From: Micromonospora orduensis
GTDB taxonomy: Bacteria; Actinomycetota; Actinomycetes; Mycobacteriales; Micromonosporaceae
Assembly (NCBI RefSeq): GCF_006228125.1
Contig: NZ_VDFY01000257.1
Location: 1 to 64,000 of the forward strand
Length of the DNA stretch: 64,000 nt
Direction of reading: 5' to 3'
Of the stretch, positions 1 to 22,628 are shown one piece after another (the first letter of the stretch is position 1; every line of letters starts with the position of its first letter). The translations under genes were made by a program, and so were the position numbers. A model generated the notes under the pieces. That model was not told the origin of the DNA. It ran no database searches and saw only the letters and a list, made by a program, of their open reading frames with translations.

Positions 1-320
1 CCCCCAACAACACCACCCACACCCCACCCAAAAACGACACCGAAAAAATCATCCACCACATCTGGACCACCATCCTCAACAACCCCCACATCAGCACCAC
101 CGACAACTTCTTCCACCTCGGCGGCCACTCCCTACTCGCCACCCAAGTCACCACCCGAATCCGCCAAGAATTCGACACACCCCTGCCCCTACGCACCATC
201 TTCGAAAACCCCACCATCACCCAACTCGCAAAAGCCGTGGAGGATCTCATCTACGAGGAGATCTCGAAACTGTCGCCGGAAGAGGTGCAGCGCATTCTGG
301 CGGCCGAGCAGCACATGTGA
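1..320 (+). CDS. NRPS, C-terminal fragment (peptidyl carrier protein domain), 5' end outside window
   Basis: The reading frame starts before base 1 (first full codon at 3) and stops at TGA 318-320. It encodes a peptidyl carrier domain with the phosphopantetheine motif LGGHSLLATQV at about residues 39-49. A charged C-terminal tail (LSPEEVQRILAAEQ) closes the protein, so this module ends without a thioesterase here. Codon use changes sharply near base 236. Upstream codons are nearly all C- or A-rich (ACC, CAC, CCC, CAA), whereas the tail uses ordinary actinomycete G/C codons. What the protein activates cannot be told from this fragment. Confidence 0.9.
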   Translation, partial: PNNTTHTPPKNDTEKIIHHIWTTILNNPHISTTDNFFHLGGHSLLATQVTTRIRQEFDTPLPLRTIFENPTITQLAKAVEDLIYEEISKLSPEEVQRILAAEQHM

Positions 321-627: not shown

Positions 628-985
628 GCGTCTCCATGTCTGCCAGATGCGTCGACGTGTTCTCGCGTAGACAGTGATCCCGGTCGTCGACCACATTGAC
701 GCTGTCCAAAATCACCCTCGGTCCGAGGTCAGGTACCGCTGCAGGTACCGGGGTCACCGCCAGAACGGCGGACGCCGCGGTACGGGTCGCGCTGATGATC
801 GAACTCTGCAGGCAGGCCACGGGGAATCCGGTGTCCCGGTCATTGAGCAGGATGACCGCTGACGCCCGGGGCAGACCGCGCGAGATTGTCCGGGAAGCTC
901 GCGATCCACTTCGGGTTGGCGTTCAGCACCTCTCTCGCGACCGCGGCGCCGACAGGGAGAACGTTGGCTGCCGGTGAACGCTCAC
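628..985 (-). pseudogene. Decayed SbnB-like N-(2-amino-2-carboxyethyl)-L-glutamate dehydrogenase
   Basis: The minus strand carries scraps of an ornithine-cyclodeaminase/SbnB-type protein in the correct order but in broken frames. A GTG at 985 overlaps the stop of the SbnA-like gene. Next come VGAAVAREVL, then PKWIASFPDNLAR, then after a frame change ASAVILLNDRDTGFPVACL and SSIISATRTAASAVLAV. Finally PRVILDSVNVVDDRDHCL and NTSTHLADMET follow. In SbnB these pieces are separated by much longer stretches, including the Rossmann domain, which is missing. At least two frameshifts and two internal deletions are needed to explain it. SbnB normally releases L-2,3-diaminopropionate plus 2-oxoglutarate from the SbnA product, so that step looks lost here unless supplied elsewhere. 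Confidence 0.8.
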
Positions 986-1998
986 GGGGTCCTCTTTCGT
1001 GCGTGCCAGTACCGGATCGCCGTCCCGCCCTCGAAGGACGCCGGCTCCAACGCCGCACTGCCGTAGTGCGCCCGCACCCAGTGGTCGTCGTAGACGTTGT
1101 CGAGATACCGCTCCCCGAGGTCGGGCGCGATGGCGACCGAGGTGAGCTTGTTTCCTGGATCGTTGCGTCGGAGCCAGTCCAGCGCCCCGGCCAGGACCGA
1201 ACCGGTGGAGCCGCCGACCACGAATCCCCGCCGGGCGAGCGCCCGGCAGTGACGCACGGCATCGACTTCCGCCACGTAGACGACATCGTCCAGCAGGCTC
1301 GGCTCGATGAGGGGTAGCGCGACGCTCGCGCCGATGCCGGGGAGGAGGCGCTGGCCCGCCGGGGCGCCGAAGCTGACCGAGCCCACCGCGTCGATGGCGA
1401 CGATCCGCACCGGCCGTCGTGCCTCCCTGAAGTAGCGTGCGCACCCCATCGCCGTGCCACCGGTCCCAACGCCGACGAAGAGTACGTCGAGTCGTGGATA
1501 CCGGCGGGAGATCTCGGGGGCAGTTGTCTCGTAGTGGATGAGCCAGTTCGCCGGGTTGGCGTACTGGTTGAGCCACAGATATCGGTCGTCGCTAGCGCAG
1601 AGGGCGGCGACGGCGTCGAGTCTCGCCTGCAGGTAGCCGGCCTCCGGGTGGGCCTCGTCGACGACCCGGACCTCCGCGCCGAGCGCGCGCATGAGCTTGA
1701 TGGTCGCCGGGTTGCAGCGGGGATCGGTGATGCAGATGAAGGGGATGCCGCGTGAAGCCGCAATGGTGGCCAGGGCCACCCCGCTGTTGCCCGAAGACGA
1801 CTCGACCAGCACGGTGTCCGGGCCGAGTGAGCCCTCCTTCTCAGCCGCGGCGATCATCGCCACCGCGGCCCGGAACTTTATCGATCCGGCAAAGTTGAAG
1901 CCCTCGTACTTGAACTGTAGGTTCCTGCCGATGAAGCCGCTCAGGTCGAGGTAGACGTGCGAGTCCAGCAGGTCGTGGGGTGCGGTGATGGTAGGAAT
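982..1998 (-). CDS. SbnA-like PLP enzyme, N-(2-amino-2-carboxyethyl)-L-glutamate synthase family
   Basis: This is a cysteine-synthase-fold PLP enzyme. The Schiff-base lysine is in GSIKFRA (about residue 39), the substrate loop is ESSSGNSGVAL and the phosphate-binding loop is GVGTGGTAMG. The beginning (PTITAPHDLL) and the VFRG-free SSSGN loop resemble SbnA/Dap-type synthases, which join O-phosphoserine or serine with glutamate toward 2,3-diaminopropionate. The best ribosome site (GAGGAGG) stands directly before an ATT codon at 1998-1996. No ATG, GTG or TTG lies in frame until an ATG at 2085, deep in the upstream gene. The gene may therefore use a rare ATT start or have lost its ATG. The partner sbnB downstream is broken, so the pathway is probably decaying. 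Confidence 0.8.
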   Translation of the reverse strand: MPTITAPHDLLDSHVYLDLSGFIGRNLQFKYEGFNFAGSIKFRAAVAMIAAAEKEGSLGPDTVLVESSSGNSGVALATIAASRGIPFICITDPRCNPATIKLMRALGAEVRVVDEAHPEAGYLQARLDAVAALCASDDRYLWLNQYANPANWLIHYETTAPEISRRYPRLDVLFVGVGTGGTAMGCARYFREARRPVRIVAIDAVGSVSFGAPAGQRLLPGIGASVALPLIEPSLLDDVVYVAEVDAVRHCRALARRGFVVGGSTGSVLAGALDWLRRNDPGNKLTSVAIAPDLGERYLDNVYDDHWVRAHYGSAALEPASFEGGTAIRYWHARKRTP

Positions 1999-2011
1999 GG
2001 CGCCTCCTCGG

Positions 2012-3220
2012 TCAGGGCACGAAATGCTCGAGATGATGGGCCCGGACCTGTCGCCAGACCTCGCGGAACTCGTCCAGGTCGCCACTGATCAGCGCCTCCG
2101 ACCCTGGCCGGCCGCTGAATGCGCCGCCGTGGAACGGCTTGCCGGTGACGAGCGCCACCACCGTCTCCCCCGCGTCCACGAACGACTTCCACATGGCACG
2201 CCGCGCCCCGGCCAGAGCCGCGGCTCCCGCCGGCTCGCTCGCCGTGGCCGCGTCATTCGCGAGGTACGCCATCGCCGAGCGCAACTCGTCGTCCGACACC
2301 GCGACGAACGCACCCGCGCTGTCGGTGACCGCTCGGACGGCTTGTTCACCGACGGCCGGTACCGGAACCCGGATACCGTCCGCGATGGTCCGAACCGTCT
2401 CCGGCGGGCGGGGTGGCAGGCCCCGCCACTGCCGGACCAGAGGCTGGCAGCCCTCCGCCTGCACTCCGATGATTCGGGGCACGGTGGAGGTCATGCCGCA
2501 GGCCCGCAGCTCGTGAAAACCTTTTGCCAACCCGACCAGGGTCGGACCGTCGCCGACCGGAGCCACGACCACGTCAGGCAGGTGCCGTTCGAGCTGTTCC
2601 CAGATCTCGAAGGCCACCGTCTTCTTAGCCTCTATCGTCACGGGGTTGGCGCCGGTGTTCCGGTCCAGCCATCCAAACTCGCGGGCCGCCGCCCTGGACA
2701 GGTCGAAGGCAGCCCGGTAGCCCCTCGCCACCCGGAAAACGTGCGCGCCGGCCGCGCGCATGACGGCCACCTTCTCCGGATCACAGTCGGCGGGTGTGAA
2801 GATGGCGGCGGAGAGCCCGACCGTCGCGGCGCCCCACGCCGTCGCCACGCCGGCGTTGCCGGTGGACGACGTGGTGATCGTCGAGGCGCCGCTACGCAGT
2901 CCGATCTCGAGGACGAGTGCTGTCGCGCGGTCCTTGTTCGACGAGATGGCGCCGGCCGTCTCATCCTTCAACCACAGGCGGGGCAGACCCAGCCGGGAGC
3001 GGAGCGCCGCGGCGGCCCGCAGCGGGGTACCGCCGATCGGGAGCGGAAAGCGCACACGCTGCTCATCGATCGGCAGCAGCGCCCGGTACCGCCACATACC
3101 CACATCGGTTGTCTCAGCCGAGGGAATGAGCTCAGGTCGGTAGTCGTACCTGATCAATTCCTTGCCGAAGATCTCGTCCGGCAATTTTCCCTGCGGAGAA
3201 CGCCCCATGTTCCACTCCAT
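2012..3220 (-). CDS. Threonine-synthase-like PLP-dependent enzyme
   Basis: This 402-residue fold-type II PLP enzyme has the PLP lysine in SSNKDRA (about residue 95), the loop SSTGNAGVA and the phosphate loop APVGDGPTLVG. ATG 3220 is chosen because AGGAGG stands seven bases upstream; the frame is open further but has no better start. Threonine synthase and its relatives do beta- or gamma-replacement on phosphorylated hydroxy-amino acids. Placed just upstream of the SbnA-like gene, it may make a diamino acid or other beta-substituted building block. That role is inferred from context. The exact substrate cannot be read from sequence. Confidence 0.8.
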   Translation of the reverse strand: MEWNMGRSPQGKLPDEIFGKELIRYDYRPELIPSAETTDVGMWRYRALLPIDEQRVRFPLPIGGTPLRAAAALRSRLGLPRLWLKDETAGAISSNKDRATALVLEIGLRSGASTITTSSTGNAGVATAWGAATVGLSAAIFTPADCDPEKVAVMRAAGAHVFRVARGYRAAFDLSRAAAREFGWLDRNTGANPVTIEAKKTVAFEIWEQLERHLPDVVVAPVGDGPTLVGLAKGFHELRACGMTSTVPRIIGVQAEGCQPLVRQWRGLPPRPPETVRTIADGIRVPVPAVGEQAVRAVTDSAGAFVAVSDDELRSAMAYLANDAATASEPAGAAALAGARRAMWKSFVDAGETVVALVTGKPFHGGAFSGRPGSEALISGDLDEFREVWRQVRAHHLEHFVP

Positions 3221-3383: not shown

Positions 3384-4478
3384 TCATGTCGCCGCGAGTT
3401 GTCCGATCCGGCGGGTCCAGCCGCACGGGTCGGGCAGCCGGCCGTACTGAATTCCGAGCAGACGCCCGCGCAACGCCGCCCCCATCGGGCCGGGCGCGGT
3501 GACGGGAAAATCGCCGGCGGCCGTACGGAGCATGCCAATCTGGGCCACCGTTGCGGCGGTGCCGCAGGCAAACACCTCACGCAGCTTTCCCGAGGCCGCA
3601 TCCGCCTGCCACTCGGCCAGGGCGATCGGCCGCTCGACGACGTCCAGACCAGCATCACGCGCGAGCCAGATGATCGAGTCCCGGGTCACCCCGGGCAGGA
3701 TCGTGCCGGTCAATGTCGGTGTGACGAGGTGGCCTTCGTAGCCGAAGAACAGGTTCATGCCAGCCATCTCCTCCACGAACTGGTGGTGCCCGGAGTCGAG
3801 GAAGACCACCTGGTCGCACCCGGCCCGCGCGGCTTCAGCCTGGGCAAGGTGGGCGCCGGCATAGTTACCGCCGCACTTCGCGGCTCCGGTGCCTCCAGCA
3901 CCTGCCCGGCTGTAGGTCTCTGAGGCCCAGACCGTCAGAGGCTTTGATCCGGGCGAGACAGGGCCTACGGGGGTAGCGATCACCGCGAACAGGTACTCCC
4001 TGGCCGGGCGCACGCCCAGGAACGCTTCGGTCGCCACGAGATAGGGCCGTAGGTAGAGACTGGTCTCCACCCCGCCCGGTAGCCACCCGCGGTCGACCTC
4101 GAGCAGTTCGGCGATGGCCCGTAGGAACAGGCCGGCCGGCACGACGGGCATCGAGAGCCGGCGGGCGGACTCCTGGAATCGGCGGGCATGGGCTTCGGGA
4201 CGGAAGAGCAGGCAGTCCCCGTCCGCGCTCCGGTAGGCCTTCAACCCCTCGAATATCTCCTGGCCGTAGTGCAGGACCGCAGCGGCCGGCGACATCGGAA
4301 TGGGGCCGAATGGTTCCACACGGGCGTCGTGCCAACCCTTCTGCTCGTGATAACGGACCGTCACCATGTGATCGGTGAACACCGTGCCGAACGCCGGCGG
4401 GGCAGCAGTCACCGCCGGCTCCGTGGACACCGTGACAAGGTGGCGATCGAATCGGGCGAGGCTTTCGTCGACTGTCAT
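3384..4478 (-). CDS. Branched-chain-type aminotransferase (class IV)
   Basis: A 364-residue fold-type IV aminotransferase of the IlvE family. Visible motifs are HYGQEIFEGLKAYR near residue 78, the PLP lysine in GAAKCGGNYA (about residue 201) and EEMAGMN. ATG 4478 follows GGAGG with six-base spacing. IlvE enzymes exchange amino groups between glutamate and branched or aromatic 2-oxo acids. In this cluster it could aminate a C-methylated 2-oxo acid made by one of the MppJ-like methyltransferases, but it could also serve ordinary branched-chain supply. It diverges from the LmbY-like gene across 150 bases containing the palindrome TTTCCGGCCGGAAA. Confidence 0.88.
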   Translation of the reverse strand: MTVDESLARFDRHLVTVSTEPAVTAAPPAFGTVFTDHMVTVRYHEQKGWHDARVEPFGPIPMSPAAAVLHYGQEIFEGLKAYRSADGDCLLFRPEAHARRFQESARRLSMPVVPAGLFLRAIAELLEVDRGWLPGGVETSLYLRPYLVATEAFLGVRPAREYLFAVIATPVGPVSPGSKPLTVWASETYSRAGAGGTGAAKCGGNYAGAHLAQAEAARAGCDQVVFLDSGHHQFVEEMAGMNLFFGYEGHLVTPTLTGTILPGVTRDSIIWLARDAGLDVVERPIALAEWQADAASGKLREVFACGTAATVAQIGMLRTAAGDFPVTAPGPMGAALRGRLLGIQYGRLPDPCGWTRRIGQLAAT

Positions 4479-4534
4479 GTTCGCCTCCGAGCGCCGGAAT
4501 GAGATTTCGACCTTACCGGCGGCCGACGACAAAT

Positions 4535-4548
4535 TTTCCGGCCGGAAA
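4535..4548. promoter_or_regulatory. Perfect 14-bp palindrome in divergent promoter region
   Basis: TTTCCGGCCGGAAA lies between the divergently transcribed aminotransferase (start 4478) and LmbY-like reductase (start 4629). Its position suits an operator serving both. It differs from the GTCTCGC-type palindromes found elsewhere in the cluster, so the binding protein is unknown. Confidence 0.35.
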
Positions 4549-4628
4549 GCCGCCAGCACCGGGAGCCGTCCGAGGTTAACTTTCCCTAGACGGTCGCAGT
4601 ACCGCACCGATTCTTCCTTGGGGTTCAT

Positions 4629-5525
4629 ATGCATGTTGGCGTGATGATTCTGCCCGAGAAACGATGGAGCGAATCCGTTGCCCGGTGGCACGGGGCCGAG
4701 AGCCTGAATTTCGACTCCGCATGGACCTACGACCATCTGTGGTGGCGCAGTCTTCGGGACCAGGCCTGGTTCTCAGCTCTGCCGCTGCTGTCCGCCGTCG
4801 CGGCCACGACGAGTCGCATCCGGATCGGAACGCTGGTGACGTCACCGAACTTCCGGCACCCTGTGGTGACCGCCAAGGACGCCATGACCATCGACGACAT
4901 CTCCGGAGGACGCTTCACGCTGGGCGTCGGCGCGGGCTCGACGGGAGCCGGCGACGCGAGCGTGGTCGGTGGCCCGAGCCTTTCGGCAGCCGACCGTACG
5001 GCACGATTCGGCGAGTTCGTGCAGCTCGTCGACGAGTTGCTGCGCAGAGAGGTCACCACCTACGAGGGGCGTTTCTTCTCAGCGGTGCAGGCGCGCATGA
5101 TCCCCGGTTGCGTCCAATCCCCCCGGCTGCCAATCGCCGTCGCCGCGACCGGGCCCCGCGGGTTCGACCTGGCCGCGCGCCACGCGGACGCCTGGGTGTC
5201 CAGTGGCCCCGCTGACTTCTCCCGGTCGTACACGCCGGACGAGTTCTACGCCGCTGTCGTCGCGCAACTCGATGGCCTCGACCGCGCCTGCGACCGCGCC
5301 GGGCGGGACCCGGCCTCCGTCGAACGCATCCTGGTCACTACGGACATGACCGGCGAGGTGCTGCGCTCGACCGAGCACTTCGTAGCCGTGGCGGAACGGT
5401 ACGCGAAGATCGGAATCCACCATCTCGTCGTGCACTGGCCGCGCGAGAACGGCGTCTTCGCCGGTCGGGTGGATGTACTTGAGGGCATCTCGCGCGACGC
5501 ATTGCCGCATGTCCACCGCCTGTGA
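4629..5525 (+). CDS. LLM-class F420-dependent reductase, LmbY-like (4-alkylproline pathway)
   Basis: A 298-residue luciferase-like monooxygenase-fold protein. It has the N-terminal strand MHVGVMILPE, the WTYDHLWW segment, IRIGTLVTSP, and GRFTLGVGAG in the coenzyme-binding region. In lincomycin, hormaomycin and pyrrolobenzodiazepine biosynthesis LmbY-type members use reduced F420 to saturate the pyrroline ring or side chain of the 4-alkylproline precursor. The identification rests on the family plus the LmbB2/LmbB1/LmbA homologues next door. The family alone is very broad, so the specific role is an inference from context. Confidence 0.72.
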   Translation: MHVGVMILPEKRWSESVARWHGAESLNFDSAWTYDHLWWRSLRDQAWFSALPLLSAVAATTSRIRIGTLVTSPNFRHPVVTAKDAMTIDDISGGRFTLGVGAGSTGAGDASVVGGPSLSAADRTARFGEFVQLVDELLRREVTTYEGRFFSAVQARMIPGCVQSPRLPIAVAATGPRGFDLAARHADAWVSSGPADFSRSYTPDEFYAAVVAQLDGLDRACDRAGRDPASVERILVTTDMTGEVLRSTEHFVAVAERYAKIGIHHLVVHWPRENGVFAGRVDVLEGISRDALPHVHRL

Positions 5526-5529
5526 CATC

Positions 5530-5545
5530 GTCTCGCCGGCGGGAC
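5530..5545. promoter_or_regulatory. Imperfect copy of the cluster palindrome
   Basis: GTCTCGCCGGCGGGAC differs at one half-site base from the perfect palindromes at 10906, 19134 and 37856. It lies five bases past the LmbY-like stop and about 190 bases ahead of a small ORF at 5737. It could be a weak LmbU-type operator or simply part of a transcript-end hairpin. Confidence 0.35.
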
Positions 5546-5682
5546 GGGTGATACGCGCCATCGCCAGCCGGTCCTCCGGCCGTCAGGTCGCCCCGCGACG
5601 ACCCAGCGGCGCGCAACAGCAGCGGCACGACCAGGCGGCCGCCGGCACGCCTGGTCGGTCGGGTTGCCCCGCAATCCCGCCA

Positions 5683-5696
5683 CACTGACATCAGTG
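5683..5696. promoter_or_regulatory. Palindrome CACTGACATCAGTG
   Basis: Six-base arms CACTGA/TCAGTG around CA, 40 bases before the start of the small ORF at 5737. It may be an operator or a leader hairpin. No family assignment is possible. Confidence 0.25.
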
Positions 5697-5736
5697 AATT
5701 CCTTCCGTCAGCACGCGCGACGACAGGAGACCCGCC

Positions 5737-5892
5737 ATGCCGACCTGGAAAGTGACGCAGAAGGCCCTCGTGCGACTTGTCACCTGGATACAGCGGCCGC
5801 GCCGACAGCCGAGCGACAGCCCGATCGATTCGGAGTCACTCGCCGCCATCGTCCACCAGGAGGTCTCCCGCCTCGGGCCGGGTGGCTGGTGA
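5737..5892 (+). CDS. Possible 51-residue small protein
   Basis: An ATG with a good ribosome site (AGGAGA, six-base spacing) opens 51 codons. The product has a basic N-terminal half (KVTQKALVRLVTWIQRPRR) that could form an amphipathic helix, and an acidic middle. It ends LGPGGW and overlaps the convergent cupin gene by 57 bases. I do not recognise a family. Support comes only from the ribosome site, the strong third-position GC and two palindromes upstream. It could be a chance frame. Confidence 0.35.
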   Translation: MPTWKVTQKALVRLVTWIQRPRRQPSDSPIDSESLAAIVHQEVSRLGPGGW

Positions 5893-6294
5893 ACCGGGGC
5901 CGCTCCCGGTGAGCAGCACACCCAGGCAGTACGACCCCGGCTGGGCCACCCGAGTGACGAAGTGGTGCACCGTTCCCGCCGGTATGAAGAAGGTCGCCGG
6001 AGAGGTGAGCACGTAGTGCTTGTCGTCCGCGACGACGTCGATAACGGCGCCGCCCGGCGTCGGGGACATGAGCAGGTAGATCTCGGGCACCTCGTGCGTG
6101 TGCGGCGCGGCCACCGGTTTTCCCACCAGCTCGCTGATCTCCCCGCCGGCCACCTCGAGCGGCAGCCCGCCAAACATGTCGGCAGTCAGATAGAACGGTG
6201 TGGGCGAGTGGTGGCCGGGGATCTGCCGGAAGAGGGGAAGATCCTCCCGGGCGGCCGGAACCGAGTTGGACTGCGTTTCGGCGCTGATGGGCAT
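5836..6294 (-). CDS. Small cupin-domain protein
   Basis: This 152-residue protein has the cupin motif 1 signature HTHEVPEIYLLMSP and a second motif FIPAGTVHHFVT. His-His-Glu and His residues are suited to bind one metal ion. ATG 6294 follows AAGGAG. It sits inside the 4-alkylproline block, between the LmbY-like and LmbW-like genes. No PhzF-like LmbX isomerase is visible in the window. It may therefore catalyse an isomerisation or oxygenation in that pathway, which is inference only. Other possibilities are a sensory cupin or an unrelated tailoring dioxygenase. Confidence 0.75.
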   Translation of the reverse strand: MPISAETQSNSVPAAREDLPLFRQIPGHHSPTPFYLTADMFGGLPLEVAGGEISELVGKPVAAPHTHEVPEIYLLMSPTPGGAVIDVVADDKHYVLTSPATFFIPAGTVHHFVTRVAQPGSYCLGVLLTGSGPGSPATRPEAGDLLVDDGGE

Positions 6295-6334
6295 GCTGCT
6301 CCTTTGACTCACGCTGGCGGGTGACGGGCGAGGA

Positions 6335-7348
6335 TCACGCCGGAGTCAACCGGACGATGAAGCTGAACGCGGGCAGATCGATGAGCCGCTGGTCGGCGCG
6401 GGTCCAGCCGCTCTCCTCCAGGACCGAGGTCCACTCCTCGAAGGTGGGTAGGTACTGATCCATGACGGCGTGCACGGTCTCGAACCCGACGGTGAACATC
6501 GGCATCTCCGAACCCCGCACCTGGGTCGAACGGCACGTGTCACCGAGGATCAGGTTGCGCGCGTTGGGAAAGACCTCACGGAGCCGACGTAACGTTCTCA
6601 CGCAGTTGTCGCGTGGCCAGAAGTCGTGGCCCATCAGGAAGCAGGTCACCAGGTCGATGTCCTCGTACTCCGGTCGCGGGGACATGCTCAGGACGTCGTC
6701 CCGGATCAGGGTGATCCGGTCTTCCAGTTCCGCCTCGGCAACCGCCTCCTTGGACACCGCCAGGGCACCGTGCGCGATGTCGATGCCCACCGCCCGGATC
6801 GACGGCCGCTGCTGGGCCAGCATGATGATCCGGTCGGAGCTGCCACATCCCAGGTCGGCGACCGTCCCGAACGGCAGGCCGTCGATCAGCTCGCGCAGCG
6901 GCGGGTCGAAGAACGTCTGCGCGATGGAACGGCAGGCCACGCTGATGGCTCGGGAGTCGCGGTGCATGACCCGGTCGGCGCGTGGCTCGTTCAGCGTCAG
7001 GTCGGTGAGGTCGGTGAACAGTTCACCGCAACCCCGCGTGAGCCAGTAGAAAAATCCCCTGTTCTTGAACGCCTCGTCGAACCCTGGTCCTCGGGCGGCC
7101 GTGGTCCGCTCCGCGTCCATCACGACGATCTCGCGGCTGGCAAGGGCCGCCAGGATGGCGCGGAGGCTGCCGAGGTGCGCGTTCGAGCGGGTGGCGAAGT
7201 GCCGAACGTCCATGCTGTCGCTGTGGGCAAGCTCGTCGAGCAACCCCAGGTCCCACGCCGCACTCAGGGCGGCCGCGGCGACCGCGCCGTTGAAGGTGTC
7301 GGCGCAATATCGGGCATCGCGGGACATGTACGGGGAGAGAGCGGTCAT
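6335..7348 (-). CDS. SAM-dependent methyltransferase, LmbW-like C-methyltransferase candidate
   Basis: A 337-residue class I methyltransferase with an N-terminal helical dimerisation region and the SAM motif VADLGCGSSDRI near residue 164. GIDIA is the ribose-binding strand and LVTCFLMGHDFWP follows. It lies between the cupin and the LmbB2-like gene, where a C-methyltransferase equivalent to LmbW would be expected. LmbW adds one methyl carbon to the opened DOPA-derived side chain, giving a three-carbon substituent. The fold is also shared with 2-oxo acid C-methyltransferases such as MppJ, so the substrate is inferred from neighbours. Confidence 0.72.
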   Translation of the reverse strand: MTALSPYMSRDARYCADTFNGAVAAAALSAAWDLGLLDELAHSDSMDVRHFATRSNAHLGSLRAILAALASREIVVMDAERTTAARGPGFDEAFKNRGFFYWLTRGCGELFTDLTDLTLNEPRADRVMHRDSRAISVACRSIAQTFFDPPLRELIDGLPFGTVADLGCGSSDRIIMLAQQRPSIRAVGIDIAHGALAVSKEAVAEAELEDRITLIRDDVLSMSPRPEYEDIDLVTCFLMGHDFWPRDNCVRTLRRLREVFPNARNLILGDTCRSTQVRGSEMPMFTVGFETVHAVMDQYLPTFEEWTSVLEESGWTRADQRLIDLPAFSFIVRLTPA

Positions 7349-7377
7349 AGGGAACCTCTTCCTAGAAGAACCAATGG

Positions 7378-8340
7378 CTACGACGCCGCAGGATGCTGCG
7401 GCTCCTCCGGGACCAGCGCACCGACGAAGCGCACAATCTCCAGCAGCGTGTCGGTGAACTCCTGCTTACGCCCCATCAGCTCACCGATCTGCAGGCTCGG
7501 CGGTTCCTCGTGCCGGCTGGACGCGAAGGACGGATACAGGCCGTTGACCATGACGTCCAGGACGATCGCGTGCAGCCGTCGCACCAGTTGGATGACAACC
7601 TGCTCGTAGGACACGACTGTCCGGCTGGTGAGGAAGATTCCGTCGTACAGCCACAGCAGCGTGTCGCGGTGCATCCGCCAGCGTCCACCTGCGGGCTTCG
7701 GACCCTGCAGCAGCGAGACGCCCGAGGGTACGACCTTGTCAGCGATGCCCTGATGGACAATCTCGTTGAGCTCGCACTCGCGGCGCAGGGCGTCCGCCTC
7801 GACCCCGCTGCCGAAGCTGACCTTGCCGCGGACGAGCTGCCGGACGGGCAGGTAGTCCCGCGCCCACGCACCACTGAGGTTCACGTGCTGACGGGCCATC
7901 GGCCCCCGGATCACCCGGTTGTAGATCTCCCGGGTCGGGGAGCTGCTGTAGATGAGCATCAGCGTGTACCCGCAGACGAGCAGTCGCGCCTGCGCCGCGA
8001 GCTTCTCGGCGTAGCTGGCGGGTGCCTCGGCGTCGTCCAGGATGGCGGCGAGCACCTGCCAGAGCAGGAACGTCGCCTGGTGTCCGGTGATCCATCGGAA
8101 CCAGAACATGCGGTCGATCTCGTCGTCACCGACGGGCCGCAGATCACGCAACGCGGCCGGCGACAGGTTGCGGAGACGGTCGTGGCAGACCGCGATGCTC
8201 GCGCGGTCGAACGATGTCGTCCGAGGCAGCCACCGGGCGGGAAGCGCGAGAGGTTCGAGGCCGTACGCGTGGCCGCCGTACTCCCACAGATCCTCTTGAG
8301 GTAGCTGTGTGACGAGGGCCGGCGAACTATGCATCACCAT
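7378..8340 (-). CDS. LmbB2-like heme-dependent L-tyrosine 3-hydroxylase
   Basis: A 320-residue protein of the LmbB2/HrmE/Orf13 type, recognised by the block PARWLPRTTSF, MFWFRWITGHQ and the helical middle with LMLIYSSSPTREIYN and RPVRQL-like segments. These enzymes bind heme and hydroxylate tyrosine to L-DOPA, the first step of 4-alkylproline formation. ATG 8340 (MVMHSS) overlaps the end of the VOC gene upstream by about 14 bases, so the two are translationally coupled. Histidines in ITGHQ and MARQHVNLS are candidates for the heme ligand and pocket. Recognition is from remembered family signatures, not an alignment. Confidence 0.65.
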   Translation of the reverse strand: MVMHSSPALVTQLPQEDLWEYGGHAYGLEPLALPARWLPRTTSFDRASIAVCHDRLRNLSPAALRDLRPVGDDEIDRMFWFRWITGHQATFLLWQVLAAILDDAEAPASYAEKLAAQARLLVCGYTLMLIYSSSPTREIYNRVIRGPMARQHVNLSGAWARDYLPVRQLVRGKVSFGSGVEADALRRECELNEIVHQGIADKVVPSGVSLLQGPKPAGGRWRMHRDTLLWLYDGIFLTSRTVVSYEQVVIQLVRRLHAIVLDVMVNGLYPSFASSRHEEPPSLQIGELMGRKQEFTDTLLEIVRFVGALVPEEPQHPAAS

Positions 8341-8854
8341 CGGCGCCGTCCGGCAGGTAGGTGAACTCGTACTCGAGTCCGTTGACGTCGTACGCGTAGA
8401 AGCTCTGCATCCCGTCCGCGTCGATGTCGATCTCGCTGGCCAGCTCCTGACGGGCGAACGTGTAGCGCCCGGACTCGTAGAGGGAGAACCAGTGCCGGTG
8501 CCAGCGACGCAGCTCCTCCTCGGTGGCAACCCGAAGACACACGTGTTGGAACTGGTTGGCATCTGCCGCGGGCGGCCCGGCGGAGTCGATGTCGCGGGTG
8601 AACAGGTGCAACCGGATGTCCGCGACGGCCACTTCGACGAGGTGGGACAGGCCGGGCAGCCGGCGCTGGCTGAGCGCGGAGAAGCCCTGGTTCATTTCCC
8701 ACGACACCGCGCAGCCCAGGAAGTCCTCGTACCAGGCGATCGAGTTGGCCAGGTCGGCGGTCTGCACACCGATGTGGTTGATGGCGCCGGTCAGCGGTGC
8801 GGGCGGCGTTGCCGTCGCGCCTGTCACGGCAGCATCCTGTCTGGTCGAGGTCAA
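8327..8854 (-). CDS. LmbB1-like L-DOPA 2,3-dioxygenase (VOC superfamily)
   Basis: A 175-residue vicinal-oxygen-chelate protein with paired motifs: INHIGVQTADL at the start and ADANQFQHVCLRV in the second half, then YDVNGLEYEFTYLP. TTG 8854 is preferred because AAGGAG stands six bases before it; the frame extends to a GTG at 8878 without a ribosome site. LmbB1-type enzymes cleave the DOPA ring extradiol, after which the product cyclises to a pyrroline. The coupling with the LmbB2-like and LmbA-like genes supports this over a generic glyoxalase. Confidence 0.75.
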   Translation of the reverse strand: MTSTRQDAAVTGATATPPAPLTGAINHIGVQTADLANSIAWYEDFLGCAVSWEMNQGFSALSQRRLPGLSHLVEVAVADIRLHLFTRDIDSAGPPAADANQFQHVCLRVATEEELRRWHRHWFSLYESGRYTFARQELASEIDIDADGMQSFYAYDVNGLEYEFTYLPDGADGDA

Positions 8855-8902
8855 GACTGTCTCCTTTGGCTTGGGCACTCCGTCGTCGGCGCCGCCGTCA
8901 CC

Positions 8903-10726
8903 TCACCGGCTGACGGCATACGCCTGGCGCCCGCGAGGGCTCGCGCTGGCAAAGACGAACCCGTTGTCCGGACGGAGGCCGGTGGCGCAGACCTTGCCGA
9001 GTGACTTCTCGGCGACCAGCTGGACTTCGTGGTTGCGGCGTTGCAACTCGGCGACGACCTCGGGCGGGCAGTCGCCCTCGACAGTCAGCCGGCGGGGGTA
9101 CGACTCGCGCGGGGTGAACGAGGCCGGGATGGCATCGGAATGAAAGGCGAGCGTCTCCGTGGCGCTCTGACTGTCCAGGCCGAAGTCGAGGACACCCAGC
9201 AGGAACAACAATGTCCACTGGTCCTGGCGATCTCCGCCAGGAGTCCCGAAGGACACGTACGACCTGCCCTCTCGAAGGACGACGGTGGGACTCAGGGTGG
9301 TCCTGGGTCGCCGGCCCGGCGCCACGCTGTTGGGGTGCCCGTCAACCAGCCACATGGTCTGGCCGCGAGTGCCGAGCGGGAAGCCCAGCTCGGCGATCGC
9401 CGGCGAGCTCTTCAGCCAGCCTCCACTGGGCGTCGCGGCCACGGTGTTGCCCGCCCGATCGGTGACTGTCACGGTGCAGGTGTCCCCGCGGGCGGCGGTC
9501 CTGGGCAGGATCGTCGGTAGGCCGTTGCCGAGCTGGCCTATCCAGTCTTCCGCGTCAGGCTGCAGGTCGGGCGGTCCCGGCGTCGGCATCCAGGGTTCGC
9601 GTCCATCCGGTGAACCCGGGCGCAGCGCCTCCGATGCCTCCTTGTTGACCAGTTCCCGGCGCGCATGGTTGTAGTCGTCGCCGAGCAGTGTCTGGAGGGG
9701 GACGTCGGACTGCAGCGGGTCGCCGTACCAGGCTTCACGGTCGGCGAACGCGAGCTTCGCGCACTCGACGACGGTGTGGATGTACTCAGCGCTGCCCAGT
9801 CCCATTCCGGTGACGTCGAAACCCTTCAGCAGCGCGAGCTGCTGCAGAAAGACGGGCCCCTGGGACCAGGGTCCGGGTTTGTGGACGGAGTGGCCCCGGT
9901 AGTCGATGCCGGCCGCCGGCTCCACCTGCGGCTGCCAGTCCGCCAGATCCTGGCCGGTCAGGAAGCCCCGGTGGCGGCGACCCGTCGCATCGATGGCCTC
10001 TGTCCGGGCCACGAAGGTGTCGATGGCCTCAGCGACGAAGCCCTGGTAGAAGGCCTCGTGGGCCGCCTCGATCTGCGACTCACGAGACGGCGACGCCGCC
10101 TCGGCGATCTCGACGATCCGCCGGTAGGTCCGGGCGAGCGCGGGGTTGCGGAAGCGTGACCCCGCGGTCGGCGCCCTTTCACCGGAGAGGTAGGTGCTCG
10201 CCGAACCCGTCCATTCGGTGAGGAACAGCGGGGCCAGCGTGCCGATCGCGTTGGCGGTCTCGGCCAGCAACGGAAAGCCGCGTTCGGCGTAGCCGATGGC
10301 GTAGCTGAGCACGTCGGCCAGGCGCATCGTCCCGAACTCGGCCAGCAACCGCATCCAGCCGCCGAACGCGCCGGGCACCGTGGCGGGCAGCAACCCCGAG
10401 CCCGGGACCTGCCCGAGCCCCAGCGCCAGAAAGCGGTCGAGCGTCGCCGCGGCGGGCACCGGCCCTTGGCCGCAGATCGCGGTGGTCTCGCCGGTCACGG
10501 CCGAATGCAGCACGATCGACAGATCGCCGCCGGGCCCGTTGTAGTGCGGCTCCACCACCTGAAGGACGAAACCGGCTGCCACCGCGGCGTCGAATGCGTT
10601 TCCACCGCGTTCCAGCACCGCCATTCCCACGGCCGACGCCGCAGGATGCGTCGAGGAAACCGCACCAAGATCGCCTAACAACTCGGGTCGGGACGGAAAC
10701 AACCTGTCACCACCATCTGTCGTCAC
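8903..10726 (-). CDS. LmbA-like gamma-glutamyltransferase homologue
   Basis: A 607-residue N-terminal nucleophile hydrolase of the gamma-glutamyltranspeptidase family. It has THPAASAVGMAVLERGGNAFDAA at the start, EPHYNGPGGD, and the autocatalytic threonine in DTCTVTV (about residue 415) followed by GNTVAATPSGGW. There is no signal peptide, unlike ordinary periplasmic or secreted GGTs. LmbA/HrmG-type cytosolic members hydrolyse a carbon-carbon bond and shed oxalate from the cleaved DOPA intermediate. The start is taken as GTG 10726; no clear ribosome site marks it. It diverges from a methyltransferase gene, and a cluster palindrome lies between. Confidence 0.8.
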   Translation of the reverse strand: MTTDGGDRLFPSRPELLGDLGAVSSTHPAASAVGMAVLERGGNAFDAAVAAGFVLQVVEPHYNGPGGDLSIVLHSAVTGETTAICGQGPVPAAATLDRFLALGLGQVPGSGLLPATVPGAFGGWMRLLAEFGTMRLADVLSYAIGYAERGFPLLAETANAIGTLAPLFLTEWTGSASTYLSGERAPTAGSRFRNPALARTYRRIVEIAEAASPSRESQIEAAHEAFYQGFVAEAIDTFVARTEAIDATGRRHRGFLTGQDLADWQPQVEPAAGIDYRGHSVHKPGPWSQGPVFLQQLALLKGFDVTGMGLGSAEYIHTVVECAKLAFADREAWYGDPLQSDVPLQTLLGDDYNHARRELVNKEASEALRPGSPDGREPWMPTPGPPDLQPDAEDWIGQLGNGLPTILPRTAARGDTCTVTVTDRAGNTVAATPSGGWLKSSPAIAELGFPLGTRGQTMWLVDGHPNSVAPGRRPRTTLSPTVVLREGRSYVSFGTPGGDRQDQWTLLFLLGVLDFGLDSQSATETLAFHSDAIPASFTPRESYPRRLTVEGDCPPEVVAELQRRNHEVQLVAEKSLGKVCATGLRPDNGFVFASASPRGRQAYAVSR

Positions 10727-11094: not shown

Positions 11095-12147
11095 ATGGCC
11101 GACAATTCAATCCAGGTGGTGGAGTTCCGCGAAGCGGAGCAACTGCGAGCGTGGCAGGATTTTCACCTGTCGACGATGCCGCAACTGATCAGCTCTATGC
11201 ACTTATGCCAGGCGGTCTTCGCCATGCTGGACACGGGCCTGCTCGACCGGCTTCACAATGGTCAGCATCGACCGGAGGACGGCCTGCTCGACGACCTCGA
11301 CGAGCGGATGGGCCCAGGGTTCCTCCGGTACCTGGTCATCCGAGGCGTGCTGGAGGAGCGGCCGGGCGGTGTGTTCCTGACCCGCCTGGGAGAGTTGCTG
11401 ACGTCGGACGTGTCGCTCGCCCGGCTCGGCATCTACGTCGGCGCGTACGGTCCGGTCACCAGCCGCATGAGCGATCTGCTCGCCGGCCGGGTGACCTACG
11501 GCAAGGACGTCGACCGCAACGGCGGCCCGTTGGGCGAGCACTGCGCCAAACTCTTCGCCATCTTCCACACGCCCGTGGTGCTGGCGGCCATGCGCGGTCG
11601 GGGCGTCTCTCGCATCCTCGACGTCGGCTGCGGCGGCGGGCAGTTGCTCGTTGACGCCTGTCTGCGGGACGAGGACCTCACGGGCGTGGGTCTCGACATT
11701 TCGCCGGAGGCCGTCGAGGTTGCCCGGGAACTGGCCCGGCGGGCGGGGGTGGACAGCCGGGTCGAGTTCGCCGTGGCCGACGGGTTCGCGCCGGAGACCT
11801 GGCCGGACTCAGCGTTCACGGCGGACGGGCTGTGCTCGGTCAGCGCGCTGCACGAGCACTTCCGCGACGGCGAACAGGCCGTCGTCGACATCCTCGACAC
11901 CTATGCGACGGTCCTGCCTGAGCAGAAGATCCTGCTGGTCGGCGAGCCTGAGATGCTGTATGTGGACAGCGAGAACCACGACGACTTCTTCCTCGTGCAC
12001 CTGCTGTCCGGGCAGGGACTCCCCCGGGACAGATCCGCCTGGCTCTCGGTCTTCGAGAAGACCCGGTTGCAGTGCCGGCGCATCTACAGCCGCCCGGGAG
12101 CCGGCCCGAGGATCTGCTTCTACGACCTCGCACCACGCCTGCCATAA
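11095..12147 (+). CDS. SAM-dependent methyltransferase with N-terminal winged-helix region
   Basis: A 350-residue methyltransferase. The first ~140 residues form the helical/winged-helix dimer domain typical of O- and C-methyltransferases (LSTMPQLISSMHLCQAVFAM). The SAM motif ILDVGCGGGQLL is near residue 177, followed by GVGLDISPEAV. ATG 11095 has AAGGGG upstream. It is the second methyltransferase near the 4-alkylproline genes and could be an extra C-methyltransferase on a 2-oxo acid or pyrroline intermediate, or an O/N-methyltransferase. The transcript ends against the convergent lmbU-like gene at a compound hairpin. Confidence 0.75.
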   Translation: MADNSIQVVEFREAEQLRAWQDFHLSTMPQLISSMHLCQAVFAMLDTGLLDRLHNGQHRPEDGLLDDLDERMGPGFLRYLVIRGVLEERPGGVFLTRLGELLTSDVSLARLGIYVGAYGPVTSRMSDLLAGRVTYGKDVDRNGGPLGEHCAKLFAIFHTPVVLAAMRGRGVSRILDVGCGGGQLLVDACLRDEDLTGVGLDISPEAVEVARELARRAGVDSRVEFAVADGFAPETWPDSAFTADGLCSVSALHEHFRDGEQAVVDILDTYATVLPEQKILLVGEPEMLYVDSENHDDFFLVHLLSGQGLPRDRSAWLSVFEKTRLQCRRIYSRPGAGPRICFYDLAPRLP

Positions 12148-12250: not shown

Positions 12251-12955
12251 TCATGCCACGGAATCCGACGGCGTCGTCACCGCGCGGTCCAGCACGCGGG
12301 CCATCCACTCCGCCAGAGTGCAGTTGTGTTGGGCGGCGGCAGTCTCCCAGCGCTCCATCCGTTCGGGGCTGATCTGCAGCTGGAGGCGAACGCTCTCCGC
12401 CTCCGACTCGTGGTGGTTCTCCACACTTGCCCGCAACTGCTTGCGCAGCTCGTTACGAGACCAGTGCATGCGCTGGGCGAAGTCGAGCCAGTGGTCCTGT
12501 TCCTCCTCCGGCAACGCGGCGACCTCCATGTGGTGCTGGAAGGTCAGCGCCGGCCTCCGACGAGAAGGCGCGAAGCACCTGGCGACCCAGGCGTAGTTGC
12601 GCAGCGTCTGGTAGTCGAGTCGGGTCTCGGCCATCGCCCGCTTGTAGCGGTCCCGGTACTTCTCCTGGCCGAACACCAGCCAGTCGCCGATCCACCACGA
12701 GGACGAGTCTGACAGCCGCAGAATTTGGCTGCCGATCTGACACCACGTCTCGAGCGGAAGTGCGTCGGGCAGGTCGAGGCGGGTTCGTCTGGTGGATGTC
12801 GCGAGGTCGATAGCCGCCGGCAACTGGTCGTCGGATGCGGGCAGGCGCTCGGCCCCGACCTGCTGCGGAGGAGCTGCCGCCGGTCGACGGTCCACCCGCC
12901 GCACCGTCCGCCCACCGACGTCGTCTCGATACCTCATTCCGTCGCGTACCGTCAT
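12251..12955 (-). CDS. LmbU-family cluster-situated transcriptional regulator
   Basis: The protein has the LmbU/HrmB signature block: LPLETWCQIGSQI, SSSWWIGDWLVFGQEKYRDRYKRA split over about residues 90-125, LDYQTLRNYAWVARCF, FQHHMEVAALPEEEQDHWL and WSRNELRKQLR. LmbU proteins are DNA-binding activators tied to 4-alkylproline clusters. ATG 12955 gives 234 residues; the frame runs upstream to 13081 and start choice in this family is known to be difficult, so the N-terminus is uncertain. The palindromes at 10906, 19134, 37856 and 43127 are its likely targets. No such site is evident directly before its own gene. Confidence 0.88.
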   Translation of the reverse strand: MTVRDGMRYRDDVGGRTVRRVDRRPAAAPPQQVGAERLPASDDQLPAAIDLATSTRRTRLDLPDALPLETWCQIGSQILRLSDSSSWWIGDWLVFGQEKYRDRYKRAMAETRLDYQTLRNYAWVARCFAPSRRRPALTFQHHMEVAALPEEEQDHWLDFAQRMHWSRNELRKQLRASVENHHESEAESVRLQLQISPERMERWETAAAQHNCTLAEWMARVLDRAVTTPSDSVA

Positions 12956-13763
12956 CAGCCAGCACCAATCCCCGTAGGTATAGAAACGGGGCGAAGACCG
13001 CAGCTCACTGAACAAAGCCGACCCTGCCGGTGGCCGAAGAGACCAGAGGACGTGCGTTGGAAAGGACAGGGCCACCACCACCGGACGTCCGATGACAGAG
13101 GCCGCCAGCGTCGATCGACGTCACGGCCGATCAGGGCGCTGCCAGCTCCGTTCCCAGGCAACACAAACCCCCGTGCGTGCATCGCCTTCAACCTCGGAGG
13201 GTGATCTCCACCCCTGGTTTACGGGAGAAACGTAACAGCGGCATCGGTCAGGGGCACGCCGATCCACTGCGGAGTATCGGCTTCCTTCCATATCCGCCCC
13301 CCCAGCCGCGCAGAAGGATGCCCTAGAAGCCCGTATTGTGCTTACTGTCACGATGACGCCCCACCGGGCAGGCCGGGCTGGTCGAGTTGGAGGGCGACCA
13401 TCGGTTCCTGGACGACGATCCGCCAAGGGAAAACCGGGCGACCCGGCACCCCCGGATCCCCGTAGCGCGGCGGTCAACCCGAGGTCCAGGGGGCCATCAA
13501 CGCGCTCAGCTTGCTGTTCCTACCCCCCAGCACTGGATCGTCCGCTCGGGCACCCTCTGGCCCCGACCCGACTCGCGGTCCCGGCTCAACTGCGTCCCAG
13601 ACCCACAACGACCGGCGGTCGACGGCTTCCCGGCCTCGGACGACCCGCTCATCTCGGCCGGTTGGGCGAAACCCCGAGGGGCGCACCGCCAGGGTGCACC
13701 CTCAGGAAGACCCGGGATCTGTGCACGTCGACGCCAGAGCGCAGCGCAGGCAGCACGCCTCCT
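12956..13763. other. Large intergenic region between lmbU-like gene and dpgB
   Basis: About 800 bases without a supportable gene. Frames on both strands have low-complexity shadow composition and no ribosome sites. It must contain the promoter of the LmbU-like gene and the end of the dpg operon. I see no cluster palindrome, repeat or recognisable gene remnant here. Confidence 0.5.
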
Positions 13764-14552
13764 TCACTGCGGCGAGATCGATTCTGGGTCCGCAGCTCGC
13801 CGAGGCACAGGGCGAGACGGGGAGCCGGCCGGATCGTCGCCAGCCGCCCGGCGCAGGGTACGGTCACAGGCCGCCAGGTGCGCGCCCAGCGCGACCTCCG
13901 GGCTAACCCAGGCCGACTCCAACAGCAGTGCCCGGCGTATGCCGACGTCGGTCAGGGCGCTCTTGTACCAGCCGTCCAGAACCGCGCGCTCGGCGGCGGC
14001 CAGGTCCTCGGCGACCTCGTCGACCAGTCCGACCGCCACCGCCTCGCGTGCGTGCACGGCCGTCCGGAACAACACCATGGGACGGGCGGCGGCCACGCCG
14101 AGCTGCTGACCCAGCCGATGGATCGCCATGGACGGCCACGCCGCGGCGTCGTCGCCGTCCAGCTGAAAGACGAAATCCGCGGCGACCACGCGGTGGTCGG
14201 CGACGAGGAGCGCCTCGGCCGCCGGGCCGGTGCAGACGCCGTCTGCCACGGCGAGTACCGGCACGCCCAGCCGCTCGATCCGGCGGAGCAGCCGCTCCCA
14301 GCGGTTCACCGAGCGGATGTTCGACCAGGACGGACTGTCGGCCAGGTGTGCAGGTGCCCCGACGATCCGCAGGACCAGCGCGACCTGGGCACCGCTGGTC
14401 TCGATCTCGGCACAGGCGGCCGTCAGCGCGGCGATCAGCTCCGTCGTCGCCGGCTGACCGCTGGCTACCGTCACACGAATCTCCGGCACGATGTCCTCCC
14501 CGCTCCGCCGTCCGGTTGGTTCGTCCGCCGCTTTGTGCACCGTGGCGCTCAT
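13764..14552 (-). CDS. dpgB: DpgB, enoyl-CoA hydratase-like accessory enzyme of dihydroxyphenylglycine synthesis
   Basis: A 262-residue crotonase-superfamily protein with VLRIVGAP, LGVPVLAVADGVCTGPAAEALLVADHRV in the oxyanion-hole region, and RPMVLFRTAVHAREAVAVGLVDEVAE. DpgB acts with DpgA and DpgD to raise the yield of 3,5-dihydroxyphenylacetyl-CoA, promoting dehydration and aromatisation of the tetraketide. Its ATG overlaps the aminotransferase stop as ATGA. It is the last gene of a four-gene minus-strand operon in the order A-C-T-B, which differs from the A-B-C-D order known from glycopeptide clusters. The C-terminal ~35 residues are low-complexity. Confidence 0.85.
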   Translation of the reverse strand: MSATVHKAADEPTGRRSGEDIVPEIRVTVASGQPATTELIAALTAACAEIETSGAQVALVLRIVGAPAHLADSPSWSNIRSVNRWERLLRRIERLGVPVLAVADGVCTGPAAEALLVADHRVVAADFVFQLDGDDAAAWPSMAIHRLGQQLGVAAARPMVLFRTAVHAREAVAVGLVDEVAEDLAAAERAVLDGWYKSALTDVGIRRALLLESAWVSPEVALGAHLAACDRTLRRAAGDDPAGSPSRPVPRRAADPESISPQ

Positions 14553-18327: not shown

Positions 18328-19125
18328 ATGAACGAATCGACCGTGCACCTCGAGAAATCACACCACGTCGCCCGAATAACGTTGAGCCGCCCGCACGTCC
18401 TCAACGCCTTGGATCTCGCCACCCATGCCCGACTCGCGGAAATCTGGGACGAGGTGGAAAGCGACGACGAGGTATGGGCCGCGGTGCTCACCGGCGCCGG
18501 CGACCGAGCCTTCTCGTCCGGTCAGGATCTCACCGAGCTCGGCAGGCGGTTGCGCGGCGGACCCGTCCGTTCGTCGATCGGCAGCCACGGGATGCCCGGC
18601 CATCCCCGGCTCACCGAACGCTTCCGCATGTCGAAGCCGATCGTGGCACGGGTCAACGGCCTCGCCCTCGGCGGTGGCTTCGAGCTGGTGCTCGCCTGCG
18701 ACGTCGTGGTCGCCGCGGAGCACGCGTACTTCGGGCTGCCGGAGGCTCGGCTGGGGCTGGTCGCGGGCGCCGGCGGGGTGTTCCGGCTGACCCGCCAGGC
18801 GCCGTTCCGTGCGGCCCTGGGGCATGTGCTTACCGGTCGGCGGATCAGCGCCGCCCAGGCCCTCGCCTACGGTCTGGTGAACGACGTGGTGCCGGCCACG
18901 GAGCTGGACGACTGTGTGGACGAATGGGTCGCCGACATCCTGCGCTGCGCCCCGCTCGCCGTCCGAGCGGCGAAGGAGATGGCGTACGCTTCGGCTGCCC
19001 GGCCGCTGGCGGAGGCGTTCGCCGCCCGCTACGACTGGGAGGACAGGCGGATGGCGAGCGCGGACGCGGTCGAGGGTCCAACGGCCTTCCTGGAGCGGCG
19101 ACAGCCCGTGTGGCAGGGGCGCTGA
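18328..19125 (+). CDS. dpgD: DpgD, enoyl-CoA hydratase/isomerase
   Basis: A 265-residue crotonase with [33 protein letters not shown] split around residues 98-115, and the glutamates of [16 protein letters not shown]. DpgD aids DpgA and DpgB in dehydration and aromatisation toward 3,5-dihydroxyphenylacetyl-CoA. It is transcribed away from dpgA, whereas in classical clusters it lies downstream in the same operon. Nine bases after its stop comes the cluster palindrome that probably controls the MFS gene. Confidence 0.88.
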
Positions 19126-21370: not shown

Positions 21371-21372
21371 CC

Positions 21373-22614: not shown

Positions 22615-22628
22615 CCGGAAGGAACGCG

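Follow-up and report, generated by a model that had tools for sequence, protein, structure and literature searches.

The first 64,000 bases of contig NZ_VDFY01000257.1 of Micromonospora orduensis (assembly GCF_006228125.1, 6.9 Mb in 321 contigs) carry a 4-alkyl-L-proline pathway adjoining a 3,5-dihydroxyphenylglycine (Dpg) pathway in nonribosomal peptide synthetase (NRPS) surroundings, as the original prediction made from this DNA had correctly claimed. The contig, 73,834 bases long, is called C55 below, and the stretch analysed, which begins at its base 1 and is its left end, is called the window. Genes for three unusual amino acids, beta-methylphenylalanine being the third, together with the NRPS and a spare ClpP pair, suggest a peptide not yet described, which may have ClpP as its target. 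In our estimate the chances are evenly balanced that this is a hormaomycin-type NRPS cluster which also took in the Dpg pathway and works by the steps proposed below. The stricter version, a single peptide that contains 4-propenylproline, beta-methylphenylalanine and 3,5-dihydroxyphenylglycine, acts on ClpP1P2 and is tolerated owing to the duplicated ClpP1P2, is put forward tentatively and is rather unlikely to hold in full. If it were true, no hormaomycin-type peptide before it would have contained Dpg, and its intracellular target would be defined. The cluster directs attention to a peptide family not yet described, whose target can be tested. From the gene order and the target duplicate taken together, the building blocks as well as the mode of action can be predicted, which makes the cluster open to checking.

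Alkylproline and beta-methylphenylalanine genes

Homologues of LmbY, LmbW, LmbB2, LmbB1 and LmbA had been placed together at 4629–10726, and all but LmbW were found there. The luciferase-like protein of the plus strand (4629–5525; PF00296, 4.1e-44) is probably an F420-dependent reductase of LmbY/HrmD type of the alkylproline pathway, with 42–59% identity to reductases of LmbB1-bearing loci (best 60 of 71 matches); a similar reductase is also encoded on contig C276 of the same genome. On the minus strand stand a heme-dependent L-tyrosine 3-hydroxylase of LmbB2/HrmE type (7378–8340; PDB 7kqr, 4.4e-52, and 8r2s, 1.3e-51), an L-DOPA 2,3-dioxygenase of LmbB1/HrmF type (8327–8878; PDB 6on1, an L-DOPA dioxygenase, 9.9e-52) and a GGT homologue of LmbA type (8903–10726; PDB 6j3a, 1.3e-167). 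The latter has the Asp-Thr self-cleavage site (residues 415–416) that is described in PMC5519988 as needed for self-activation and C–C cleavage. Its phylogeny was studied in a midpoint-rooted tree of 38 proteins, comprising 36 of the 66 counted GGT matches from LmbB1 loci, the window GGT and the genome's own paralogue. The window GGT clusters with the 36 and is sister to that of Actinoplanes siamensis (99/97), and the second GGT of the genome forms a long separate, outlying branch. The PDB matches, and for the GGT also the tree, relate the VOC, GGT-like and 7378–8340 proteins to LmbB1, LmbA and LmbB2. A regulator of the LmbU family (12251–13081, minus strand; NF038070, 232.5 bits, cut-off 125) follows.

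Relatives of LmbB1 were collected by a contig search with an LmbB1 alignment, and the best 80 of 84 confirmed ones were kept as loci; plasmid records gave no LmbB1 match. Four of these loci (L085, L096, L104 and L111) have no LmbB1 match over more than half of its length among their called genes and were kept in the denominators. Genes of related loci were called with a home-made codon-score caller, and an absence reported there means none among the called genes. A PhzF-family gene (LmbX type) stands within 10 kb in 43 of the 80 loci. None was found on C55 or on C299, the contig onto which the cluster probably extends, and the two of the genome lie on C276 and C288. The hormaomycin cluster is likewise described as having HrmC/D/E/F/G and no LmbX, and lmbX deletion strains as making Z-propenyl products (PMC4780272). 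Its product is reported to hold 4-(Z)-propenylproline and beta-methylphenylalanine (PMC13194151, PMC4273223), and its regulator HrmB to belong to the LmbU family (PMC6510168). Since LmbX is absent here as in hormaomycin, whose product contains both residues, the alkylproline half may be called hormaomycin-type.

For METHYLTRANSFERASE there are two candidates in the window, MT_A (6335–7348, minus strand) and MT_B (11095–12147, plus strand). MT_A is the only methyltransferase found within 4629–10726 and had been taken for LmbW, an assignment ruled out by its match to MppJ (PDB 4kib, 303 bits over 321 residues, 2e-89), of which it is an orthologue. The histidines of its motifs MGHDFW and FETVHAVM align with those of MppJ, which is described as methylating phenylpyruvate on the way to beta-methylphenylalanine (PMC6117699, PMC6085390). 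With LmbW wrongly picked, the third unusual amino acid was overlooked. The LmbW-type enzyme stands just outside, at 11095–12147, and was recognised by neighbourhood orthology. In 19 of 20 matches from LmbB1-bearing loci MT_B shows 51–68% identity, and its identity is 60–66% to the methyltransferases that immediately adjoin LmbA in anthramycin-like loci. The gene order there, MT-LmbA ... LmbB1-LmbB2-LmbY-PhzF, corresponds to that of anthramycin ORF5-6 and ORF12-15 as numbered in Table 1 of PMC4780272. The score of MT_B against MppJ is only about 34 bits. This likeness to LmbA-adjoining enzymes, combined with the weak MppJ score, makes MT_B the LmbW/ORF5-type C-methyltransferase of the alkylproline side chain and leaves MT_A to a separate beta-methylphenylalanine unit.

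Two neighbours of MT_A may serve the same unit. The cupin at 5836–6312 (minus strand; PDB 6j4b, 1.8e-42, and 7eqk, 5.1e-40) is a possible beta-carbon epimerase of the beta-methyl keto acid; in the formation of beta-methyltryptophan similar cupins serve as epimerases. The IlvE-type aminotransferase at 3384–4559 (minus strand; NF009897, 426.5 bits, cut-off 307) is a candidate for the last step of beta-methyl amino acid formation. A close MT_A relative, defined by at least 55% identity, is present in 4 of the 80 loci (L043, L044, L045 and L118, at 62–72%), each of which also has an IlvE homologue (55–62%), and in three of them a cupin homologue (60–79%) adjoins the MT_A relative. Relatives at 40–44% in a further 8 of the 80 were not counted as close. 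A role of the cupin as a stand-in for LmbX was considered and is not needed, hormaomycin being also without LmbX and the cupin travelling with the MppJ-type gene. Alkylproline loci without LmbX but with a close MppJ-type gene form a group, with four further members, in which misreadings come easily, MppJ being akin to LmbW (26% identity as published).

Based on this gene content one can propose that LmbB2 would convert tyrosine to L-DOPA, LmbB1 would open it, MT_B would methylate the cyclised keto acid, LmbA would take off oxalate and LmbY would reduce the ring imine. As there is no LmbX isomerase, the side chain would be expected to stay propenyl, as in hormaomycin. MT_A with the cupin and IlvE would yield beta-methylphenylalanine or a close aryl analogue.

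Dihydroxyphenylglycine genes and the assembly line

A complete Dpg set was expected within 10 kb of LmbA and is there, starting 3.0 kb and ending 8.4 kb after it, with DpgC just below its cut-off. The minus strand carries DpgB (13764–14552; NF042431, 180.5 bits, cut-off 140), an aminotransferase in the HpgT/Pgat position (14549–15790; PF00155) whose gene overlaps both dpgB and dpgC, DpgC (15787–17094; NF042432, 514.2 bits, cut-off 530, E 3e-154) and the 3,5-dihydroxyphenylacetyl-CoA synthase DpgA (17097–18188; NF042429, 559.7 bits, cut-off 425), while DpgD is on the plus strand (18328–19125; NF042430, 436.2 bits, cut-off 400). The 5' end of dpgC is uncertain: the frame is open to 17094, and its longest form gives the 514.2 bits, a short start 482.3. 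The aminotransferase is 48–49% identical to those of the Dpg operons of two Nocardia and A. siamensis and 45–46% to those of two Amycolatopsis Dpg regions. DpgA-D with this aminotransferase would supply Dpg. A glycopeptide cluster as the explanation of these genes is not favoured (X domains were not searched for).

The meeting of LmbB1, LmbB2 and LmbY with DpgA-D is not unique to the window. DpgA-D stand within 10 kb on each side of LmbB1 in 2 of the 80 loci, both from Nocardia. The genome search for DpgA covered 50 of the 80 loci, the other 30, mostly of pyrrolobenzodiazepine type by gene order, being omitted; it found DpgA over the cut-off in 12 of 50 genomes, in two of them (N. tenerifensis and N. 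altamirensis) beside LmbB1. In the remaining ten DpgA and LmbB1 are on separate contigs or over 300 kb apart, although draft contigs, those of A. siamensis included, could join. As the Nocardia loci have no called LmbA, the window is the only case among those examined with a full alkylproline core and Dpg. No paper with both 4-alkyl-L-proline and dihydroxyphenylglycine was found among the matches listed from the open-access literature, in agreement with the original prediction, which knew of none; this is weak evidence of novelty, most subscription journals lying outside that search.

The assembly line is broken by the contig start. The window opens with the C-terminal carrier-protein end of an NRPS (3–320, plus strand; 51.6% identity to residues 1802–1894 of Apl_G399_13770), its best match being the carrier domain that ends an NRPS of A. 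siamensis encoded next but one to LmbA. The adenylation (A) domain preceding that carrier has the proline-like code DVQYHGQHVK, which resembles the modular Pro pattern VQ(Y/F)... given in PMC3874040. Comparison of the A. siamensis module with the M. orduensis genome returned contig-end fragments at C299:70–414 (query 53–167) and C55:21–305 (query 561–655), and a second, mutually complementary pair at C66:70900–71970 (query 51–405) and C55:73103–73792 (query 403–637). With C66 and the right end of C55 accounted for by each other, C299 and the left end of the window remain as partners. C290 also ends inside an NRPS gene, and the own-genome search yielded no remnant of an A domain there. The gap between C299 and C55 would amount to 1.1–1.2 kb if the gene has one module and to more if it has two, and it would contain the A domain to which loading of the alkylproline is ascribed. 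The cluster probably continues onto C299, a different arrangement being possible. Two genes of C299 tie it to the left half. The RidA-like one is 54–60% identical to those present in three related alkylproline clusters; the other, of MFS type, has 50% identity to the gene adjoining LmbB1 in Streptomyces noursei. In G478, another genome of the family, an ATP-grasp (45%) and a PCP-C gene (34%) are lined up with counterparts of C299 genes, namely those of an MbtH-A-PCP protein (63% over 649 residues) and of a protein of the 'DYxGRR' kind (55%), which ties C299 to the right half as well, short of proof. The A domain at C299:4135–7875 is without the usual core motifs and looks degenerate.

The 'LDYxGRR' proteins deserve separate mention. 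Two related ones, which start with this motif, are 41% identical and have no Pfam match, are encoded at C299:12689–13492 and 21518–22342 (L017, L202), and the kind is also found next to an ATP-grasp gene in G478 (42% and 55%), so that an unnamed family tied to NRPS clusters can be discerned.

Within the window an NRPS protein has the order A-PCP-C-A-PCP-TE (28496–34249, minus strand), where PCP, C and TE are peptidyl carrier protein, condensation and thioesterase domains. Its A1 code DFWNVGMVHK is presumably that of Thr, and A2 reads EARMGGQMMK; the Thr, Ser and Val names used here all rest on what we take to be the standard codes. An A-PCP protein (25525–27291, minus strand) has the code DAWWLGGTFK, which we take to be Val/Ile-like. 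Domain matches further place a cytochrome P450, a thioesterase and a stand-alone A-PCP protein with an N-terminal extension (code DAILLGGSYK) at 38414–43012 on the minus strand, a set that may be of the beta-hydroxy amino acid type, and an operon of a thioesterase, a P450, a PCP-C protein and an ATP-grasp ligase at 20612–25555 on the plus strand. Running onto C299 over the contig break, this split assembly line would join the three unusual amino acids with Thr/Ser/Val-like residues. ATP-grasp matches were obtained in 128 genomes and the surroundings fetched for eight. The P450, PCP-C and ATP-grasp genes recur together (47–57%) in three genomes of the same genus (L228–L232), in two of them beside a thioesterase and a whole A-PCP gene; a contig end truncates the block in one of the three. 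This conserved block, in other surroundings there, may make an undescribed building block.

As a reference for Dpg activation the pattern Y..GTL was derived from three A domains of Dpg gene regions, whose substrates are themselves presumed. They are the domain with the code DPYHGGTLCK in a 1864-residue protein of Amycolatopsis keratiniphila, which we take to be the last glycopeptide module, the domain with DAYSTGTLCK that comes from the two Nocardia loci, and a Phytohabitans domain adjoining DpgA, with AVYQSGTLFK.

The extra ClpP pair and rival readings

At 43571–44891 the plus strand carries an extra ClpP1 (43571–44200) and ClpP2 (44229–44891; both PF00574), a candidate for self-resistance. 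That it is the housekeeping pair was ruled out by a second pair on C123, 81% and 85% identical to the window ClpP1 and ClpP2, which lies between genes that we take to be tig- and clpX-like. A clpP gene beside an NRPS cluster is described as a known sign of self-resistance for ADEP (PMC12607617) and for metaze (PMC13386464), and the extra pair suggests target-based self-resistance here. It would protect the producer, and the peptide would then probably act on ClpP. Metaze itself was considered as a match, but the source cited describes an azetidopyrroline cluster. In the open-access literature nothing matching was found on hormaomycin with ClpP or, among the matches listed, on ClpP1P2 self-resistance.

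Several observations weigh against the reading proposed above. Neither a Dpg-like (Y..GTL) nor a Pro-like code occurs in the four window and five C299 A domains that were read. The thioesterase/A-PCP/P450/PCP-C/ATP-grasp block stands in the three same-genus genomes without called Dpg, alkylproline or ClpP genes in the 16.7–40 kb fetched. Two NRPS proteins bear a terminal TE (C299:4135–7875 and window 28496–34249), which could mean two products. The substrate of MT_A could be another aryl pyruvate, and the likeness to hormaomycin was taken from published descriptions and not from a comparison of hrm sequences. The LmbU box CGCCGGCG, considered as a possible hint that the two halves are regulated together, is not enriched: 23 sites stand against 15.6 expected, a count matched by 8 of 100 shuffles, so it offers no evidence of such control. 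In the seven related genomes tested ClpP and LmbB1 do not share a contig, except in the one-contig genome G385, where about 850 kb separate them. It is possible that two separate clusters adjoin, a hormaomycin-like alkylproline/beta-methylphenylalanine peptide being made from C299 and the window to about 13.1 kb, and a separate Dpg peptide, with its own TE and the ClpP pair, from 13.7–45 kb. This arrangement, in which no molecule is shared, has in our view a minority chance, yet one to be reckoned with. It would fit the gap of 0.7–0.8 kb that separates the Dpg operon from the LmbU gene, the single TE-bearing NRPS on each side and the existence of relatives of the alkylproline half that have no Dpg genes in the same stretches, but it leaves the right half itself without a Dpg-like code and does not explain why C299 has kin of both halves, of the right one through the G478 row. 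Nor is there an obvious break among the genes annotated at 982–44891, although the IlvE-, threonine-synthase- and SbnA-like ones could belong to ordinary metabolism. With no Dpg-like code in a readable A domain, joint incorporation of alkylproline and Dpg is unproven. The claim of one peptide with both units, as well as that of its novelty, stands therefore only in part: the gene sets are together and a new product is plausible, but not more than that follows for a molecule holding both.

The missing code could also mean that what the Dpg enzymes provide is no Dpg residue of this peptide but, for instance, a 3,5-dihydroxyphenyl acid cap, alkylproline and beta-methylphenylalanine being incorporated normally. 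This is improbable. The aminotransferase of Dpg-operon type overlaps dpgB and dpgC, so that the pathway would be expected to end in Dpg itself; moreover, the assembly gap conceals one A domain or more, and A2 of 28496–34249 has no substrate call. For the single hormaomycin-type cluster with Dpg the target is a question of its own, and we regard it as a serious possibility, somewhat short of even, that the ClpP pair is an accidental neighbour and uninformative on what the product hits. The pair keeps its Ser- and His-bearing motifs and is, as stated, 81–85% like the other genomic one, and ClpP is not near LmbB1 in the seven related genomes. Yet it lies at the cluster edge, where clpP is a known sign of self-resistance, and its copy number is exceptional: among 121 genomes of the genus ClpP2 has five matches here, three in 116 genomes, four in two, two in one and one in one. 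A second ClpP2-like match above 70% identity is present only here and in G327 (73%).

Neighbouring genes and known systems

The cluster region holds several further genes. An SbnA-like pyridoxal phosphate (PLP) enzyme of 2,3-diaminopropionate type (982–2085, minus strand; TIGR03945, 356.2 bits, cut-off 349.95) adjoins a threonine-synthase-like PLP enzyme (2012–3220, minus strand; PALP domain, threonine synthase models below cut-off), and the two could supply a diamino acid. An MFS transporter (19272–20615, plus strand; PF07690, 4e-33), a second aminotransferase of class I/II (27288–28499, minus strand; PF00155, 7.8e-37), an aldehyde dehydrogenase, a WelO5/Ile-dioxygenase-like oxygenase and a methyltransferase (34246–37569, minus strand; domain matches), and an MbtH-like protein (38126–38341, plus strand; PF03621, 5.7e-30) complete the set. 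Beyond it, at 47489–48103 and 49116–61314, stand genes of carbohydrate use, namely LPMO, polysaccharide-lyase-like, LacI regulator, sugar-type ABC transporter, ROK and DUF4127 ones. On the far side C66 probably continues into C55 from the right (C55 65729–73834) as a second NRPS cluster. The last bases of C55 (73791–73834, the end of L018) resemble a sequencing adapter, presumably Illumina Nextera, and that contig end is therefore probably an assembly artefact.

Lincomycin and pyrrolobenzodiazepine clusters share with the window LmbB2, LmbB1, LmbA, an LmbW-type methyltransferase and probably LmbY, but LmbX/PhzF has no counterpart here and the NRPS surroundings are unlike. Hormaomycin and the window have in common an alkylproline set without LmbX and an LmbU-family regulator, and to the Thr-type A domain here corresponds allo-Thr there. 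The MppJ-type beta-methylation gene adjoins the alkylproline genes in the window, and on this point the likeness comes from the hormaomycin product rather than from hrm genes. The listed residues of hormaomycin do not include Dpg, while the window adds the Dpg set, the ATP-grasp/PCP-C block and the ClpP pair.

Clusters of Catellatospora sichuanensis, Actinomadura rudentiformis, A. siamensis and S. noursei, to our knowledge uncharacterised, share LmbB1, LmbB2, the MppJ-type methyltransferase (62–72%), LmbA, the LmbY-type reductase and IlvE, and three of the four also the cupin, but no Dpg or ClpP genes were called in the 36–60 kb fetched. The Dpg operon of A. siamensis is on another contig than its alkylproline cluster; the Catellatospora cluster has a proline-3-hydroxylase-like gene, and that of Actinomadura looks similar by eye. 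The A. siamensis cluster (L187–L188) also contains a second LmbB2 homologue (37%) and genes resembling, by eye, those of p-aminophenylalanine synthesis (PabAB-, chorismate-mutase- and TyrA-like).

In N. tenerifensis and N. altamirensis (L098 and L100), clusters likewise uncharacterised as far as we know, LmbB2, LmbB1 and LmbY stand with DpgA-D and the aminotransferase within 13 kb, and the code of an NRPS A domain resembles the glycopeptide Dpg code. They differ in having no LmbA, MT_A, MT_B or ClpP among the genes called in 60 and 52.7 kb; the LmbA of N. tenerifensis is elsewhere, in the anthramycin-like locus L119. A proline-3-hydroxylase-like gene stands in the N. tenerifensis Dpg locus and, by eye, polyketide-synthase-like genes in both. 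The two clusters may represent a different use of cleaved L-DOPA. The 4-methylproline of ADEP comes from another route. The likeness of that system to the window consists in a clpP gene (clpP_ADEP) near an NRPS cluster (PMC12607617), which is described as a single, phylogenetically distinct ClpP, whereas here a close P1-P2 pair accompanies the genes for three unusual amino acids.

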